Assembly (NCBI RefSeq): GCF_000374125.1 | Contig: NZ_KB893628.1 | Coordinates: 140,910-204,909 of the forward strand | Source of the DNA: Niabella aurantiaca DSM 17617 | Lineage (GTDB): Bacteria; Bacteroidota; Bacteroidia; Chitinophagales; Chitinophagaceae | Direction: 5' to 3' | DNA length: 64,000 nt | Shown: one piece after another, positions 54,309 to 64,000 of the stretch | How positions within the stretch are numbered: position 1 is the stretch's first letter | Layout of the letters: every line of letters starts with the position of its first letter | The notes under the pieces: model-generated | The model's input: the letters and a program-made list of their open reading frames with translations, nothing else | Database searches by the model: none | What the model was told of the DNA's origin: nothing | Made by a program: the position numbers and the translations under genes

Positions 54309-56486
54309 TTACAGGTTATTCCCGGTTCCGGTAACCGCCAGCTTCATTTCTTTCAACAGGTGTCCCGCACCGGCATATTTATCAATGATAAACAACACGT
54401 AGCGGATATCTACCATAATATTCCGGCAAATAGAAGCGTCATAATGGATATCGCTCATCGTGCCTTCCCATACACGGTCAAAATTGATCCCTATCAGGTT
54501 GCCGTTCGCATCCAGCGCCGGGCTGCCGCTATTGCCGCCGGTGGTATGATTGGAAGCAATAAAACATACCGGCATCCGGTAGCCACCGGATGCATCATGT
54601 ACCCCATAACGGCCATAGTCCTTTTTCATATATAACCGGCGCAATTTTTCGGGAACATCAAACTCGTAATCACCCGGGATGTATTTTTCCATAACCCCAT
54701 CCAGGTATGTGCTATAGCCATAGCTTACTCCGTCTGCCGGATGATATCCATCTACCTTGCCAAAGCCCACCCGCATAGTGCTGTTGGCATCGGGGTAAAT
54801 TTTTTTATCGGTTAGCACCTCTGTTTGCGCCTGCATGTATTTCCGCTGCAAACCATTGATCCGCGCCTGCAGCTCATTAAGCTTTGGGGTAACTTCGTTA
54901 TTATACAGGTCCGCCATTGCTAAGACCAGCAGGGCTGTCGGATCTGTTTCCAATGCCCGGTAAAGTTCTCGGGGATCGGACCGCACCCCATCCAGTACTT
55001 TTGCCGGATCGAGAAAAATACTGTGATCATATAAAGCAGCGGCCCACCGTTGATAGTCTTTTCCATACTGCTCAAATTGCCGTTTAGCAACCGGCACTAT
55101 ATACGCCGCCTGTTGTTTTTCCATGTACACCGGAAGCAGGGCTGCAAAAATTTCCCTATCTACCTCTGTACTGAAGTTCTTATACAGCTCGGTCAGCTTT
55201 TCCAGCTGTGCACTTTGCTCTTTACCATACCCGGGCTTTCCGGTAGCCGCCTGCAAAGCCCGCAAACGGTTTATGATCCCAAACAATTCGATCTTGCTGA
55301 TCGTTTCCAGATAATAGTCTCGTGTAAGCCCATAGGGCGCTATTTCTTTATATACATCATTCAATTCCTGCAAGACATTCCCGTATTTTTTATAAAGACT
55401 TTCACTTGCTTGCAGCCGTTTTTGAAAATCTGTTTCATACAATTGCTTCTTTTGCACAGCCCCCGTACGTGTAAGCCCCAGTATTTCTCCCTGCCACTTT
55501 TTCCACGCGTTGGAAATGCCCGCATATTTAGAGGCATATTTTATTTTCAGCTCTTCATCTGCGCGCATATAGTTTTTCATAACGCCCAGAGCCTTATCCC
55601 TGATCAGGATCTTCGCCGGGTCATTCAGCTCCACGATCTGCCTTACCGCTTCACTGGGAAGATACTCAGACGTACGGCCGGGAAAACCAAAGATCATGGT
55701 AAAATCATCCTGCTTCATTCCCTGCAGGGATATGGTCAGCGCTCTTTTCGGAACATAAGGAACATTATCCGGTGAATATGCGGCCGGGCGGTTATCTTTT
55801 CCGGCATAGATCCTGAAAACGCTGAAATCTCCGGTATGCCTGGGCCACATCCAGTTATCCGAGTCCTGCCCGAAATTTCCAATACTGGAAGGCGGGGCGC
55901 CAACCAGCCGTATATCCTTAAAGGTCTCCGTTACAAAAAGATAGTATTTATTCCCTTCAAAAAACGGGCTGACAAAGGCGTTTTCAAAATCACCCAATAC
56001 CGTGGTCCGTTTCAGTTCATTGATATTCCGGTCGATCATGCTTTGGCGGTCACGTTCTTCCATTGCTAAATTTACCCCTTTTAATACACGGTCCGATACA
56101 TCGTCGATCCTGACAATAAACGTCACAAACAGATCTTCATTGGGCAGCTCTTCCGCAAGATTCCGCGCCCAGAAGCCGTCCCTGATATAGTTTTTGTCCA
56201 GTGTTGCATGTCTTTGTATGGATCCAAAACCACAATGGTGATTGGTCAGCACCAGCCCTTTTTCTGAAACAACCTCTCCCGTACAAAATCCACCGAAGTT
56301 TACGATCGCATCTTTCAGGCTGCCTTTATTAATATCATAAATGTCTTTTGCGGTTATCTTCATACCCAGCTGCTGCATCCGTTGCTCATTAAGGCTTTCC
56401 AGCAGCTGCGGTAACCACATTCCTTCATCGGCTTTTGCCAGGCCCATGCACATCAATCCGGCCGCCAGGCCGAAAATTTTTTTCAT
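54309..56486 (-). CDS. S46 family dipeptidyl-peptidase, DPP11-type
   Basis: 725 residues from the ATG at 56486 (MKKIFGLAAGLMCMGLAKAD; the open frame extends 15 codons upstream). Chymotrypsin-like catalytic residues: His in LVLTNHHCGFGSIQ, Asp in WMWPRHTGDFSVFRIYAG, Ser in TTGGNSGSPALDANG. The S1-pocket segment reads INFDRVWEGTMSDI, with Arg at the place that gives DPP11 its Asp/Glu preference, where DPP7 has Gly. Periplasmic, feeds dipeptide uptake. Last minus-strand gene before the proposed origin. Confidence 0.92.
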   Translation of the reverse strand: MKKIFGLAAGLMCMGLAKADEGMWLPQLLESLNEQRMQQLGMKITAKDIYDINKGSLKDAIVNFGGFCTGEVVSEKGLVLTNHHCGFGSIQRHATLDKNYIRDGFWARNLAEELPNEDLFVTFIVRIDDVSDRVLKGVNLAMEERDRQSMIDRNINELKRTTVLGDFENAFVSPFFEGNKYYLFVTETFKDIRLVGAPPSSIGNFGQDSDNWMWPRHTGDFSVFRIYAGKDNRPAAYSPDNVPYVPKRALTISLQGMKQDDFTMIFGFPGRTSEYLPSEAVRQIVELNDPAKILIRDKALGVMKNYMRADEELKIKYASKYAGISNAWKKWQGEILGLTRTGAVQKKQLYETDFQKRLQASESLYKKYGNVLQELNDVYKEIAPYGLTRDYYLETISKIELFGIINRLRALQAATGKPGYGKEQSAQLEKLTELYKNFSTEVDREIFAALLPVYMEKQQAAYIVPVAKRQFEQYGKDYQRWAAALYDHSIFLDPAKVLDGVRSDPRELYRALETDPTALLVLAMADLYNNEVTPKLNELQARINGLQRKYMQAQTEVLTDKKIYPDANSTMRVGFGKVDGYHPADGVSYGYSTYLDGVMEKYIPGDYEFDVPEKLRRLYMKKDYGRYGVHDASGGYRMPVCFIASNHTTGGNSGSPALDANGNLIGINFDRVWEGTMSDIHYDASICRNIMVDIRYVLFIIDKYAGAGHLLKEMKLAVTGTGNNL

Positions 56487-56531
56487 TGAGATCATCATTT
56501 CCAAAATTATAAGACGGGAAAGATAAGGCAA

Positions 56532-57073
56532 TTTATAGTACTTACATACATTCGTTTTTTAAAAGTTTTTTTGGTTTTCCAGCCCTAAAAAGCATCTTTT
56601 TGTCCCCAAACCTATGTGTATTATCCATAGATAATGTGTATAACCCTTTGTGGAACGTGTATGTGAAATGTATTACTGGCTGAAATTTTCGTCTCTGCGC
56701 TTCCGCTTTCTATTTTTGGTTAACAGCTGCCATTTTATACCAGCAATATTAACATAGTGTAAATTTAATATGTCCTTTCCTTTTTGTAAACACCTCAGAA
56801 TCCACATTTCTGTTAATAAATACCCGTAATCTATAAGATTCGTAACTTCATCATGTGAATATGTGTTGAATATATGTGGGTAACCAAAAATCCGGAAAAA
56901 ATAAAACTCGTGAATAACCCGGTTATCCACTAATCCACAGCCGTAATAATAATAGATTATTTTAAATAAATAATTAATATAAATATTATTAAAAAGAGAA
57001 AAAAGGAGTTTAAAAAAACTTTGATTTTTTATTGAGCTTGGTTGTATCATTGCAGGGATAAAATTTTTCAATT
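56532..57073. other. Candidate chromosomal replication origin (oriC)
   Basis: 540 bases without a gene. Five one-mismatch matches to the DnaA box TTATCCACA: 56621-56629 (TTATCCATA), 56635-56643 (minus, TTATACACA), 56875-56883 (minus, TTACCCACA), 56923-56931 (TTATCCACT), 56931-56939 (TAATCCACA). The next 60 bases (56941-57000) hold only 6 G or C, a possible unwinding element. Plus-strand base skew turns here: 48661-48720 in the plus-strand CapA gene has 11 G and 20 C, while 58681-58740 in a plus-strand gene has 27 G and 7 C. Flanking genes point away on both sides. Confidence 0.65.
57020..57052 (+). promoter_or_regulatory. Promoter of nadA
   Basis: TTTG at 57020-57023 and TATCATTG (one mismatch to TAnnTTTG) at 57045-57052, spacer 21 bases, matching the Bacteroidota -33/-7 layout; ATG at 57074. 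Confidence 0.55.
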
Positions 57074-58084
57074 ATGGACGCAGGTAGCTTGGAAGCAGCA
57101 AAGAATGGTTTGGATCAGAAAGGTTTTCTGGATGTGACAGTTGATCCGAAACTGGATCTGTTTGAAGAAATTGAAAAATTGAAGAAGGAAAAAAATGCGG
57201 TGGTACTGGCGCATTATTACCAGGAGCCTGAGATACAGGATATTGCGGATTATATCGGCGATAGCCTCGGATTGGCACAGGAGGCGCAAAAGACGAATGC
57301 GGATATGATCGTGTTTGCCGGGGTTCATTTTATGGCAGAAACCGCCAAGATCCTGAATCCAACAAAGAAAGTGGTGATCCCCGACTTTAAAGCCGGTTGC
57401 TCCCTGAGCGATAGCTGCCCGCCACCCTTGTTTCAGAAGTTTAAAGAGCAGCATCCGGATCATGTGGTGGTGAGCTATATTAACTGCAGTGCGGGCATTA
57501 AGGCTTTGAGCGATGTGATCGTTACCAGTAGCAACGCCCGGATCATCGTGGAAAGTTTTCCGAAAGACCAGAAGATTATTTTTGCGCCGGATAAGAACCT
57601 GGGCGCCTACATTAATAAGGTTACGGGAAGGAATATGTTGCTGTGGAACGGCGCATGTATGGTGCATGAAATATTTAGCCTGGAGAAAATCACCCGGTTA
57701 AAACACCAGCATCCCAATGCCAAACTGATTGCTCATCCCGAGTGTGAGGAACCGCTGCTGCGATTGGCGGATTATATCGGATCCACTACCGGCCTTCTGA
57801 AATACACGAAGCAGGATGACGCAAAAGAATACATTGTAGCAACAGAAACGGGCATCCTGCACCAGATGGAAAAAGCCAGCCCCGGTAAGGTGTTCATCCC
57901 GGCTCCCCCGGACAACAGCTGCGCCTGCAATGATTGTCCGCATATGAAAAGGAACACATTGGAGAAACTCTATCTGTGCATGAAATATGAATTACCGGAT
58001 ATCATTATGGATGAGTCATTACGGCTTGCCGCTAAGAAACCCATCGACCGGATGCTTGAGATCAGCGCAGCTGCAGGATTGTAA
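57074..58084 (+). CDS. nadA: Quinolinate synthase A
   Basis: 336 residues. NadA makes quinolinate from iminoaspartate and dihydroxyacetone phosphate in NAD synthesis. Motifs: [33 protein letters not shown], and the three [4Fe-4S] cysteines in [18 protein letters not shown] and CNDCPHMK. Full length. nadD, for a later step, is 4 kb downstream; nadB and nadC are not in the window. Confidence 0.97.
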
Positions 58085-60491: not shown

Positions 60492-61727
60492 ATGTTGCTG
60501 AGGCATTTACATTTTTTAAAACTGGTGCTGTTGCATGGCTTAACTGCCTTTGGCGGACCTCAGGCGCATCTGGCCATGATGATGAAAACTTTTGTGAAGC
60601 AGACTCCTTATATAACGGAAAAGGAGCTGATGGAATACAATGCATTCTGCCAGTTGCTTCCGGGAGCATCATCTACTCAAACATTAACGCTGATCGGGTT
60701 TAAAAGAGGGGGCGTGCCACTGGCAATTCTCACTTTACTGGTCTGGATCCTGCCCGCGTGCAGCATTATGGGTGGGCTGTCTTTTTTAGTGAATTATTTG
60801 ACCGGTGAAGAAAGCCTGAACATTTTTCGGTTCATCGTGCCCATGGCTGCGGGGTTTTTGATTTATGCCTGTGTTTCAGCTTTTCCCTATTCTGTAAATA
60901 ATATGATCACTTTTGTGATAGCCTTTTTGGCGGGGTTGATCACTTTTTTGTTTTTCGGAAGACCGTTTATTGTGCCGGTGCTTATCGTTGCGGGAGGGGT
61001 TGTTACCAACCTGAGTAAGAAAAGGATCCCGCAGGTGGTGGTAAGACCGGGTAAAATACAATGGTGGAATATCTGGCTTTTTGCCATCATCTTTATTCTT
61101 GCCGGTATTTTCAGTGAGTTGGCCCGGAAAAACGAGTGGGAGTATAGGAAACCGGTGAATCTTTTTGAGAATACGTACCGGATGGGCAGCCTGGTTTTTG
61201 GAGGGGGCAATGTTCTGATGCCGATCATGTATGAGCAGTACAGCGTGCGGCCGGAAGAAGTTAAAGTAAAGAACCCGAACGCGATAAAAATAGATAAGGA
61301 AGAAATGCTTACGGGTATTGGTCTGGTTCGGGCAATGCCAGGTCCGGTTTTTTCGATATCTTCTTATACAGGCGGATTGGCCTTAAAAGATATGGGTGCG
61401 TCTATGCAGGTGGTCGGTGCTGTAATTGGGATGGCGGGTATTTTTTTGCCGAGTGCCTTGTTGGTGCTTTTTTTCTTTCCCATCTGGAATATGTTGAAAA
61501 AATATTCGGTGATCTACCGGTCGCTGGAAGGGATCAACGCATCGGTAATGGGTATCATGATGGGGTCTACGGTGTACATTATGAAAGATCTTTCGATATT
61601 CAATTTTCAGGCGCTGGAACTAACCAACCTCGCCGTGGTACTGGGTACCTCGGCAATATTGATCTTTACGAAGATCCCTGCTCCTGTTCTGGTATTTCTT
61701 TGTTTAATGCTAGGCTATTTTCTATAA
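60492..61727 (+). CDS. chrA: Chromate transporter family protein (ChrA)
   Basis: 411 residues from the ATG at 60492. Two CHR halves: the first with [18 protein letters not shown] and [20 protein letters not shown], the second with [17 protein letters not shown] and [20 protein letters not shown]. About ten membrane helices. Long-chain two-domain form. Chromate export is family knowledge; many members have unknown substrates. Overlaps the 3' end of nadD (convergent) by 13 bases. Confidence 0.92.
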
Positions 61728-62287
61728 TAGCCTGCTTTTTCAATTTCTTCGATAACTGTGTCCGGAAGCAGATAGCGGATGGACTTTTTAGCTTTGATCA
61801 GCCGGCGGATGTCGGTGGCTGAAATCTCCAGAAATGGAGCCTGCAATAAAGTTGTTTTATTTCCAATATTGGCATTTATAGAGAAACCTGGTCGATTGTA
61901 TATTAATATAATAAAGTTTTCTAATATAAATGAATAGTTTTTCCATTTTTGAATATTTTGAAAGCTATCGCTGCCAAGTATGATCGAAAATTCGTGCTGC
62001 GGATACTTTTCCGATAAATGTGTAAGGGTAACAGCGGTATAAGAAGGCCGGGGAAGGGTGAACTCTATATCAGTTGCCTGCATGCGGATATCATTGTCAA
62101 TGGCCAGCCGGGTCAGATGAAGCCGTTGGTTTTCATTCAGCAGGGAAGCAGTTTCTTTCAACGGATTGTGAGGGGATACTACAAACCATATGCGGTCTAC
62201 CAGTTCTTCATTGAGTACATGATTGGCAATGATGAGGTGTGCATGGTGTATGGGATTAAAGGAGCCAAAGAACAAGCCGATTTTCAT
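61715..62287 (-). CDS. nadD: Nicotinate-nucleotide adenylyltransferase
   Basis: 190 residues, adenylyltransferase fold. [20 protein letters not shown] (nucleotide-binding GxFxPxHxxH) and [10 protein letters not shown] (ISSTxxR), with [11 protein letters not shown] and [10 protein letters not shown]. Makes deamido-NAD from NaMN. Nine bases after feoA on the same strand, so the two may be cotranscribed. Confidence 0.96.
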
Positions 62288-63036: not shown

Positions 63037-63052
63037 TGTTCCACGTGAAACC
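63037..63052. promoter_or_regulatory. parS-like site 1
   Basis: TGTTCCACGTGAAACC, a match to the bacterial parS consensus TGTTnCACGTGAAACA with one terminal difference. Begins 2 bases after the ybeY stop. Confidence 0.75.
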
Positions 63053-63132
63053 AAGATCATCATATCTGTATCTGGAGGAAGTTATTCGAGTCGTTCCATG
63101 TAAAATCTCTTAATAGTAGAGATTTATTTTTT

Positions 63133-63148
63133 TGTTCCACGTGAAACG
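63133..63148. promoter_or_regulatory. parS-like site 2
   Basis: TGTTCCACGTGAAACG, same core as site 1. A decayed copy, CGTTCCATGTAAAATC, lies between them at 63092-63107. Confidence 0.75.
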
Positions 63149-63588
63149 TTTTTTTAATAGGAATGGATCTTTTGTAGAGGATCTTGCTGATCGGTGCTCA
63201 GAAAATTTAATGGTAATGAGGGATGTAATAATGAGGCGATATTAATTTTAATGGCGGGTGGTATCCTAAATGGTTTGCGGATATGACTGGTGCCACGGGC
63301 AATGTGCCTACTGACGGAACAATAAGTTTATTAGGATGATTTGACATCGCGGCTGAAAGCTGATCGTTGGTTGATACATGCTTGTTTTTAAAAGGTGTAT
63401 CCGGAATATAAAATAGCTCTGTTTGGATAGACTTATTTTCCTGCAATAGAAGATGTTCTTGGTGCTTGTTTAAACGATGGTAATATCCGGGTATTCCCAG
63501 ACCAGACCCGGGTGTTTTATGTGGTATTCATTTTGTTTTTTTTTGCGATCACCGCTCTATGGCAATTGTAAGCATTGAATAGATTAAC

Positions 63589-63604
63589 TGTTTCACGTGG
63601 AACA
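63589..63604. promoter_or_regulatory. parS-like site 3
   Basis: TGTTTCACGTGGAACA, a near-perfect dyad around CACGTG, 91 bases before mnmG. With sites 1 and 2 it makes three ParB sites in 570 bases. The rest of 63053-63694 has no convincing gene. Confidence 0.78.
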
Positions 63605-63694: not shown

Positions 63695-64000
63695 ATGTTT
63701 CCAGAATATGATATAATTGTTGTGGGCGCCGGGCATGCGGGCTGTGAAGCCGCCGCTGCTGCTGCCAATATGGGCTCAAAAACCCTGTTGGTGACCATGA
63801 ATATGCAGACCATTGCACAAATGAGTTGCAATCCCGCTATGGGTGGTATTGCAAAGGGGCAGATCGTGCGGGAAATTGATGCCCTGGGTGGTTATTCGGG
63901 GATTGTTACCGATCTCTCTATGATCCAGTTCCGGATGCTTAACCGGTCAAAAGGTCCTGCTATGTGGAGCCCCAGAGCTCAGAGTGATCGTATGCTTTTT
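63695..64000 (+). CDS. mnmG: tRNA uridine-5-carboxymethylaminomethyl modification enzyme MnmG (GidA), 5' part
   Basis: The first 102 codons, cut by the window end. FAD-binding GxGxxG-type motif ([19 protein letters not shown]), then [20 protein letters not shown] and DALGG, the GidA/MnmG hallmark. Modifies the wobble uridine of tRNA with MnmE. gidA is an origin-linked gene in many bacteria. Confidence 0.96.

Follow-up and report, generated by a model that had tools for sequence, protein, structure and literature searches.

A proposed chromosomal origin of replication with a basal-unwinding-type core beside nadA in Niabella aurantiaca

Does replication of the chromosome of Niabella aurantiaca DSM 17617 begin in an intergenic gap upstream of nadA that has no dnaA beside it? 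Judging from the features of the sequence, we believe that it very probably does, which would make this gap oriC, the origin from which the chromosome is replicated. The window, by which we mean the whole 64,000-nucleotide stretch analysed, is C4:140910-204909 of a 5.93-Mb draft assembly in 25 contigs. As a preliminary description of this DNA had it, the genes that flank the gap diverge; Peptidase_S46 is encoded by the minus strand, nadA by the plus strand (Table 1). The name DPP11 that it gave to the peptidase did not hold up, however, as the sole NCBIfam match is to a DPP7 model, at 650.8 bits and below the cut-off of 1200. It was right that no dnaA adjoins the gap; an adjacent dnaA is frequent at bacterial origins but not required of them. 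The dnaA gene sits on another contig, at C1:76134, with dnaN on C2, parB on C23, and a second, weak DnaA-domain match at C1:1053765; the gap itself is on C4. The NadA encoded in the window shares 96% identity with its counterpart in Niabella drilacis (L046) and 93% with that in N. pedocola (L047), which places the genome among the Niabella-like Chitinophagaceae. The L046 locus, from N. drilacis DSM 25811, has the same core. Two genes of NAD synthesis, nadA and nadD, lie close together at the proposed origin.

Table 1. Features of the proposed origin and its surroundings, in window coordinates
Feature	Position	Strand	Remarks
S46-family dipeptidyl peptidase gene (Peptidase_S46)	54309..56489	-	PF10459; divergent neighbour of the gap
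Proposed oriC, intergenic	56532..57073		about 540 bases between the S46 peptidase gene (-) and nadA (+)
DnaA box TTATCCATA	56621..56629	+	1 mismatch
DnaA box TTATACACA	56635..56643	-	1 mismatch
DnaA box TTACCCACA	56875..56883	-	1 mismatch; 48 bases ahead of the core box
Core DnaA box 1, TTATCCACT	56923..56931	+	1 mismatch
Core DnaA box 2, TAATCCACA	56931..56939	+	1 mismatch; one-base overlap with box 1
Spacer GCC, box 2 to trios	56940..56942	+	cumulative GC-skew minimum of the window at 56942
Four DnaA-trios	56943..56954	-	plus strand GTA ATA ATA ATA, i.e. 3'-NAT-5' on the minus strand
AT-rich tract, probable DNA unwinding element	56944..57003		3 G/C in 60
Probable nadA promoter: TTTG, 21 bases, TATCATTG	57020..57052	+	presumed function; after the AT-rich tract
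nadA, quinolinate synthase	57074..58084	+	PF02445; conserved neighbour of the proposed origin
nadD	61715..62287		about 5 kb from nadA; TIGR00482 match above cut-off
parS-like site	63037..63052	+	2 mismatches
parS-like site	63133..63148	+	2 mismatches
parS-like site	63589..63604	+	1 mismatch
mnmG/gidA, start (622 aa)	63695..64000	+	PF01134, TIGR00136; extends past the window end

DnaA boxes were sought as TTATCCACA with one mismatch allowed, and also with two. The five one-mismatch boxes in about 320 bases that had been claimed are there, exactly five of them, spanning 319 bases, and none is a perfect match. This clustering is well beyond chance: none of 1000 dinucleotide shuffles of the gap contained five boxes (mean 0.21, maximum 3), and two-mismatch boxes number 12, against a mean of 2.6 in 300 shuffles. 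The entire window holds 20 one-mismatch boxes, never more than two per 400 bases outside the gap, and among 24 other stretches of the genome (0.47 Mb) the densest cluster is three in 400 bases, reached once, the remaining stretches having one or two. That single cluster, in C4:40001-60000, might be a titration site. The abundance of boxes extends to relatives. Within 700 bases upstream of nadA, 60 of 76 named relatives' loci have at least three one-mismatch boxes and 70 have at least two, with 0 to 1.0 expected; two boxes are present in 10 loci, one in 5 and none in 1. Individual positions recur as well. Many relatives have a minus-strand box at about -437 from nadA, matching the one at 56635, and where a relative, of this genus or another, retains both boxes, the core box is preceded at 47-49 bases by the nearest minus-strand outer box; the box at 56621 has no counterpart at the same place in the relatives compared. 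When 14 of 17 same-genus gaps were aligned, the longest run of invariant columns was TTATCCAC of core box 1. The same 14 gaps share two further strongly conserved blocks, at 56598-56609 (TTTTGTCCCCAA) and 56650-56679 (GTGGAACGTGTATGTGAAAT), which are not clear DnaA boxes and are perhaps weak DnaA sites or sites for another factor.

Within the gap lies a core, 56923-56954, in which TTATCCACT overlaps TAATCCACA and is followed by GCC, by GTA ATA ATA ATA, and then by the AT-rich tract. In the part of the published account drawn on here, a basal unwinding system (BUS) is built from a DnaA box or a pair of them, a spacer no longer than 16 bases, and three or more trios whose central A is on the other strand; the trios are 3'-NAN-5', often 3'-GAT-5', and their distance from the first box peaks at 10-13 bases (PMC8287927). 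The gap has two overlapping core boxes, trios that begin 11 bases from the first box and 3 from the second, and four 3'-NAT-5' trios that are conserved in relatives. The core thus has the anatomy of a BUS, from which DnaA-dependent strand opening is predicted. The AT-rich stretch of 60 bases said to follow the boxes is real and even poorer in G/C than the six that had been counted (three, 56944-57003), a probable unwinding region next to the boxes; within the 64 kb, 60-base windows with at most four G/C start only at 56943-56946.

The GC skew turns in the same place. From -0.16 in 55001-57000 it rises to between +0.16 and +0.22 in the windows that start at 57001 and beyond, and over the 64 kb the cumulative curve reaches its minimum inside the core of the gap, on the last base ahead of the trios. 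The preliminary description had held that the skew turns irrespective of gene direction, and the ten genes compared bear this out. Plus-strand genes have skews of +0.036 and -0.003 to the left of the gap (n=2) and of +0.12 to +0.30 to its right (n=5), and the plus-strand skews of minus-strand genes are -0.07 and -0.17 on the left (n=2) and +0.19 on the right (n=1); the turn therefore follows place, not gene direction. The plus-strand genes on the left are close to zero rather than distinctly negative; the preliminary description had drawn on 60-base samples, with 11 G to 20 C in a plus-strand gene on the left and 27 G to 7 C in one on the right. On the scale of the genome, skew was sampled on 5 of the 25 contigs, whose orientation is arbitrary. 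Four C4 stretches to the left of the window come out at -0.03 to -0.04, the stretch at the right end of that contig, which partly overlaps the window, at +0.12, and all 19 stretches from C1, C2, C3 and C5 are positive as oriented.

Genomes in a single contig allow the turn to be placed on a whole chromosome, using 20-kb skew samples and locating the far end of the arms from the same data. In three such genomes of the same genus, two arms meet at the nadA gap, in accordance with 20/20 samples in G004, 19/20 in G008 and 17/20 in G009, where two of the misfits are at zero and one is opposed. The skew turns back roughly halfway round the chromosome in G008 and G009; in G004 it does so at about 41% of the chromosome, by the shorter way. 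In G020, a single-contig genome of another genus, the skew is weak, with positive samples at 3.06-3.55 Mb ahead of nadA at 3.71 Mb, and therefore does not single out the gap. Where named loci extend about 10 kb both ways (n=49), the nadA side has the higher skew in 48 and the sign changes from negative to positive across the gap in 39; in only 25 is the cumulative minimum within 1 kb of where nadA starts.

Is this core peculiar to the gap, and is it kept by relatives? A strict BUS pattern, ATNCACANNNNTARTARTARTA, was derived from a listing of cores upstream of nadA in relatives, with the reversed pattern as control. In the 5.93-Mb genome it matches once, in the gap, and the control does not match at all. 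It occurs in 24/32 Chitinophagaceae genomes, as opposed to 6/116 from other families of the order (control 1/148), and in 23 of the 24 family genomes that carry it, it lies directly upstream of nadA on the same strand, L209 being the exception; the other 8/32 are without the strict pattern. Seven of the 32 (six with a match) had served to write the pattern, and leaving these out, 18/25 match, 17 of the 18 beside nadA. Across 296 genomes of the phylum, a set that partly overlaps that of the order, it is present in 10/11 of the family and 3/285 others (control 4/296). Outside the family the strict pattern is therefore at chance level, and we do not claim it for Bacteroidota.

A wider form, made up of the box tail, spacer and four trios, was sought in nadA loci with 100 or more upstream bases, 108 of 110 in all (our own included; 80 named, some species twice). 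It is present in 84/108, compared with 3/2160 shuffles, and among the 24 loci that miss it, many have a core with small changes. The core was not found upstream of nadA in G017, G027, L074, L077, L097 and L112; L070 and L118 both have a core near nadA, and the family genome G033 gave no nadA match. Three loci from other families of the order, L223, L225 and L227, have a real-looking core with an AT-rich tract but no nadA in the 3-kb locus, and these are probably origins in other gene neighbourhoods.

Sites for ParB loading, parS, are usually found near bacterial origins, commonly though not universally. We searched for the consensus with up to two mismatches, and for its reversed pattern as control. 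The only parS-like sites in the genome are the three at 63037-63604, between ybeY and mnmG and 6.1-6.7 kb from the core; the reversed pattern has none. The stretch between ybeY and mnmG that harbours them comprises about 660 bases without a clear gene. Proximity of parS to the proposed origin is seen in this genome and, with exceptions, in relatives. Each of the 10 relatives chosen carries parS-like sites downstream of the nadA start, at a distance of 3.8-11.2 kb; in these 10, 31/44 parS-like places are near nadA and 13/44 elsewhere, and the reversed pattern gives 21 places, so that single two-mismatch sites weigh little. The site near nadA in G020 is a weak one, with two mismatches like two others elsewhere in that genome. 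Of the named loci that extend 10 kb or more on the nadA side (n=55), a parS-like site is present there in 28 (27 of them within 10 kb) and absent from the stretch examined in 27; 2 of 55 have one on the other side, and the reversed pattern occurs on the nadA side in 0/55.

Overall, these observations support the preliminary interpretation of the gap as oriC. This reading is favoured because the box cluster, the AT-rich tract and the skew minimum of the window fall together; because the BUS-type core is unique in the genome and much of the family retains its architecture upstream of nadA; because the skew turns at the gap in three single-contig genomes of the same genus; and because the only parS-like sites of the genome are 6.1-6.7 kb off, just ahead of mnmG. 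The sequence elements themselves, their uniqueness and conservation, the turn in skew and the clustering of the parS-like sites are established here.

How such an origin would operate we infer from what has been published on Bacillus and other bacteria; this goes for the binding of DnaA, the way the DNA is opened, the departure of forks in both directions and the part played by parS. For opening from core boxes over trios, the basis is work in Bacillus, in those parts of PMC8287927 and PMC10721633 that we draw upon. DnaA, encoded elsewhere in the genome, would bind the tandem core boxes at 56923-56939 as well as the outer ones, and an ATP-DnaA filament would grow from the core boxes over the four minus-strand trios at 56943-56954, stretching that strand and opening the AT-rich tract at 56944-57003. 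Helicases would then load, and two forks would depart, one through the S46 peptidase gene and the other through nadA. The outer boxes would contribute affinity and timing, as none of the boxes matches perfectly, and ParB on the parS-like sites 6.1-6.7 kb off may help to separate the new origins.

DnaA boxes are also found in promoters and at titration sites, and the gap contains a conserved promoter-like element for nadA. The cluster might then be a regulatory region bound by DnaA, for titration or for control of nadA or the peptidase gene, with the true origin elsewhere, for example near dnaA. We consider this very unlikely, as the skew turns at the gap both in this window and in three single-contig relatives, parS-like sites cluster nearby, and titration needs neither trios nor an AT-rich tract. 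An origin at dnaA itself was considered and rejected: the six boxes in the surrounding 20 kb are scattered, no two of them lying within 400 bases, and the skew there is positive overall (+0.117), with no minimum at dnaA.

Inversions flip skew too, and the assembly is a draft in 25 contigs, so the turn might mark an inversion breakpoint or an assembly join to which the box cluster is coincidental. We find this scarcely credible when G004, G008 and G009 all show the identical turn at this gap, the skew rises across the gap in 48/49 named loci, and boxes and trios are conserved across much of the family. The indistinct skew of G020, and the family members without a core beside nadA, would be more readily accommodated if the gap were one of two origins or a former origin now disused; the single occurrence of the BUS pattern in the genome, the strong local skew and the complete core, the last two of which argue for present use, make this, too, exceedingly improbable. 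An active oriC in the gap is the reading that we retain.

How does this proposed oriC compare with known origins? That of Bacillus is located at dnaA/dnaN, unlike the Niabella gap, which adjoins nadA. In E. coli, oriC lies beside gidA (mnmG). The oriC of Yersinia is likewise placed between gidA and mioC in the part of PMC10225481 that concerns us. The Niabella locus resembles these enterobacterial origins in having mnmG nearby and no adjacent dnaA, and differs from them in that mnmG is 6.6 kb off, with nadA, nadD, ybeY and the parS-like sites between. In its core the resemblance is to the BUS of Bacillus subtilis oriC, which has two tandem DnaA boxes, a short spacer and at least three adjoining trios (PMC8287927, PMC10721633, in the passages relevant here); the 11 bases from first core box to trios fall inside the 10-13 peak given in the same portion of PMC8287927. 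Unlike those of B. subtilis, the Niabella trios are 3'-NAT-5' with few 3'-GAT-5', and the core is known here from sequence alone. The kinds of evidence (a skew minimum, a box cluster, an indicator gene and trios) are those used for origins predicted by Ori-Finder and DoriC, as set out in the relevant portion of PMC10225481.

The locus is very probably an ordinary oriC of a known kind in an unusual, family-conserved place, and what is apparently new is its position beside nadA, shared by much of the family, and the completeness of its BUS-type core. Among the papers listed in literature searches, none describes, in its title or the opening of its abstract, an origin in Chitinophagaceae or beside nadA; DoriC may already contain origins for closed genomes of the family. 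For the family, the gap supplies an origin at sequence level with a specific opening element, for which nadA replaces dnaA as the indicator gene, and on which coverage-based growth estimates, genome rotation and replication studies in Chitinophagaceae could be anchored. It also offers a BUS-type core from a phylum other than that of the Bacillus model, usable for an unwinding assay.

The putative nadA promoter is close to the -33/-7 type of Bacteroidota, and GTA(T/A)CATTGCA is present in 14/14 aligned same-genus gaps. For the divergent S46 peptidase gene, a further conserved block at 56733-56773, TTTTATACC..AATATTAACATAGTGTAAATTTAATATG, is perhaps the promoter. Many genera elsewhere in the family have an AT-rich tract that seemingly extends to the nadA start codon, and transcription and opening would therefore share the same DNA there. 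One might go further and suppose that origin and NAD synthesis are coupled, with nadA transcription and opening competing or cooperating, and that a second trio-like tract serves as a second point of entry for opening or helicase loading; this combined proposal is speculative, and we think it unlikely. How dual helicase loading is arranged is not understood, according to the part of PMC10721633 that treats it, and a second tract, if it is an entry point, could bear on how the two helicases are loaded.

The tract in question, TATTATTAA at 56984-56992, lies at the far end of the AT-rich region and has similar but directionally ambiguous counterparts in relatives. A three-base rhythm was looked for in the 60 bases after the trios in 62 de-duplicated tracts (of 85), which are related to each other. 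Runs of at least three TAN occur in 43/62 tracts, compared with 15.0 expected from shuffles, and runs of NTA equally in 43, compared with 14.2. The rhythm is real, but with TAN and NTA counts equal its direction is indistinguishable, and a mirror-image second set of trios was accordingly rejected. Matches of 9/11 to the trio tract are found inverted in 31/62, direct in 28/62, as the complement in 26/62 and in plain reverse in 15/62.
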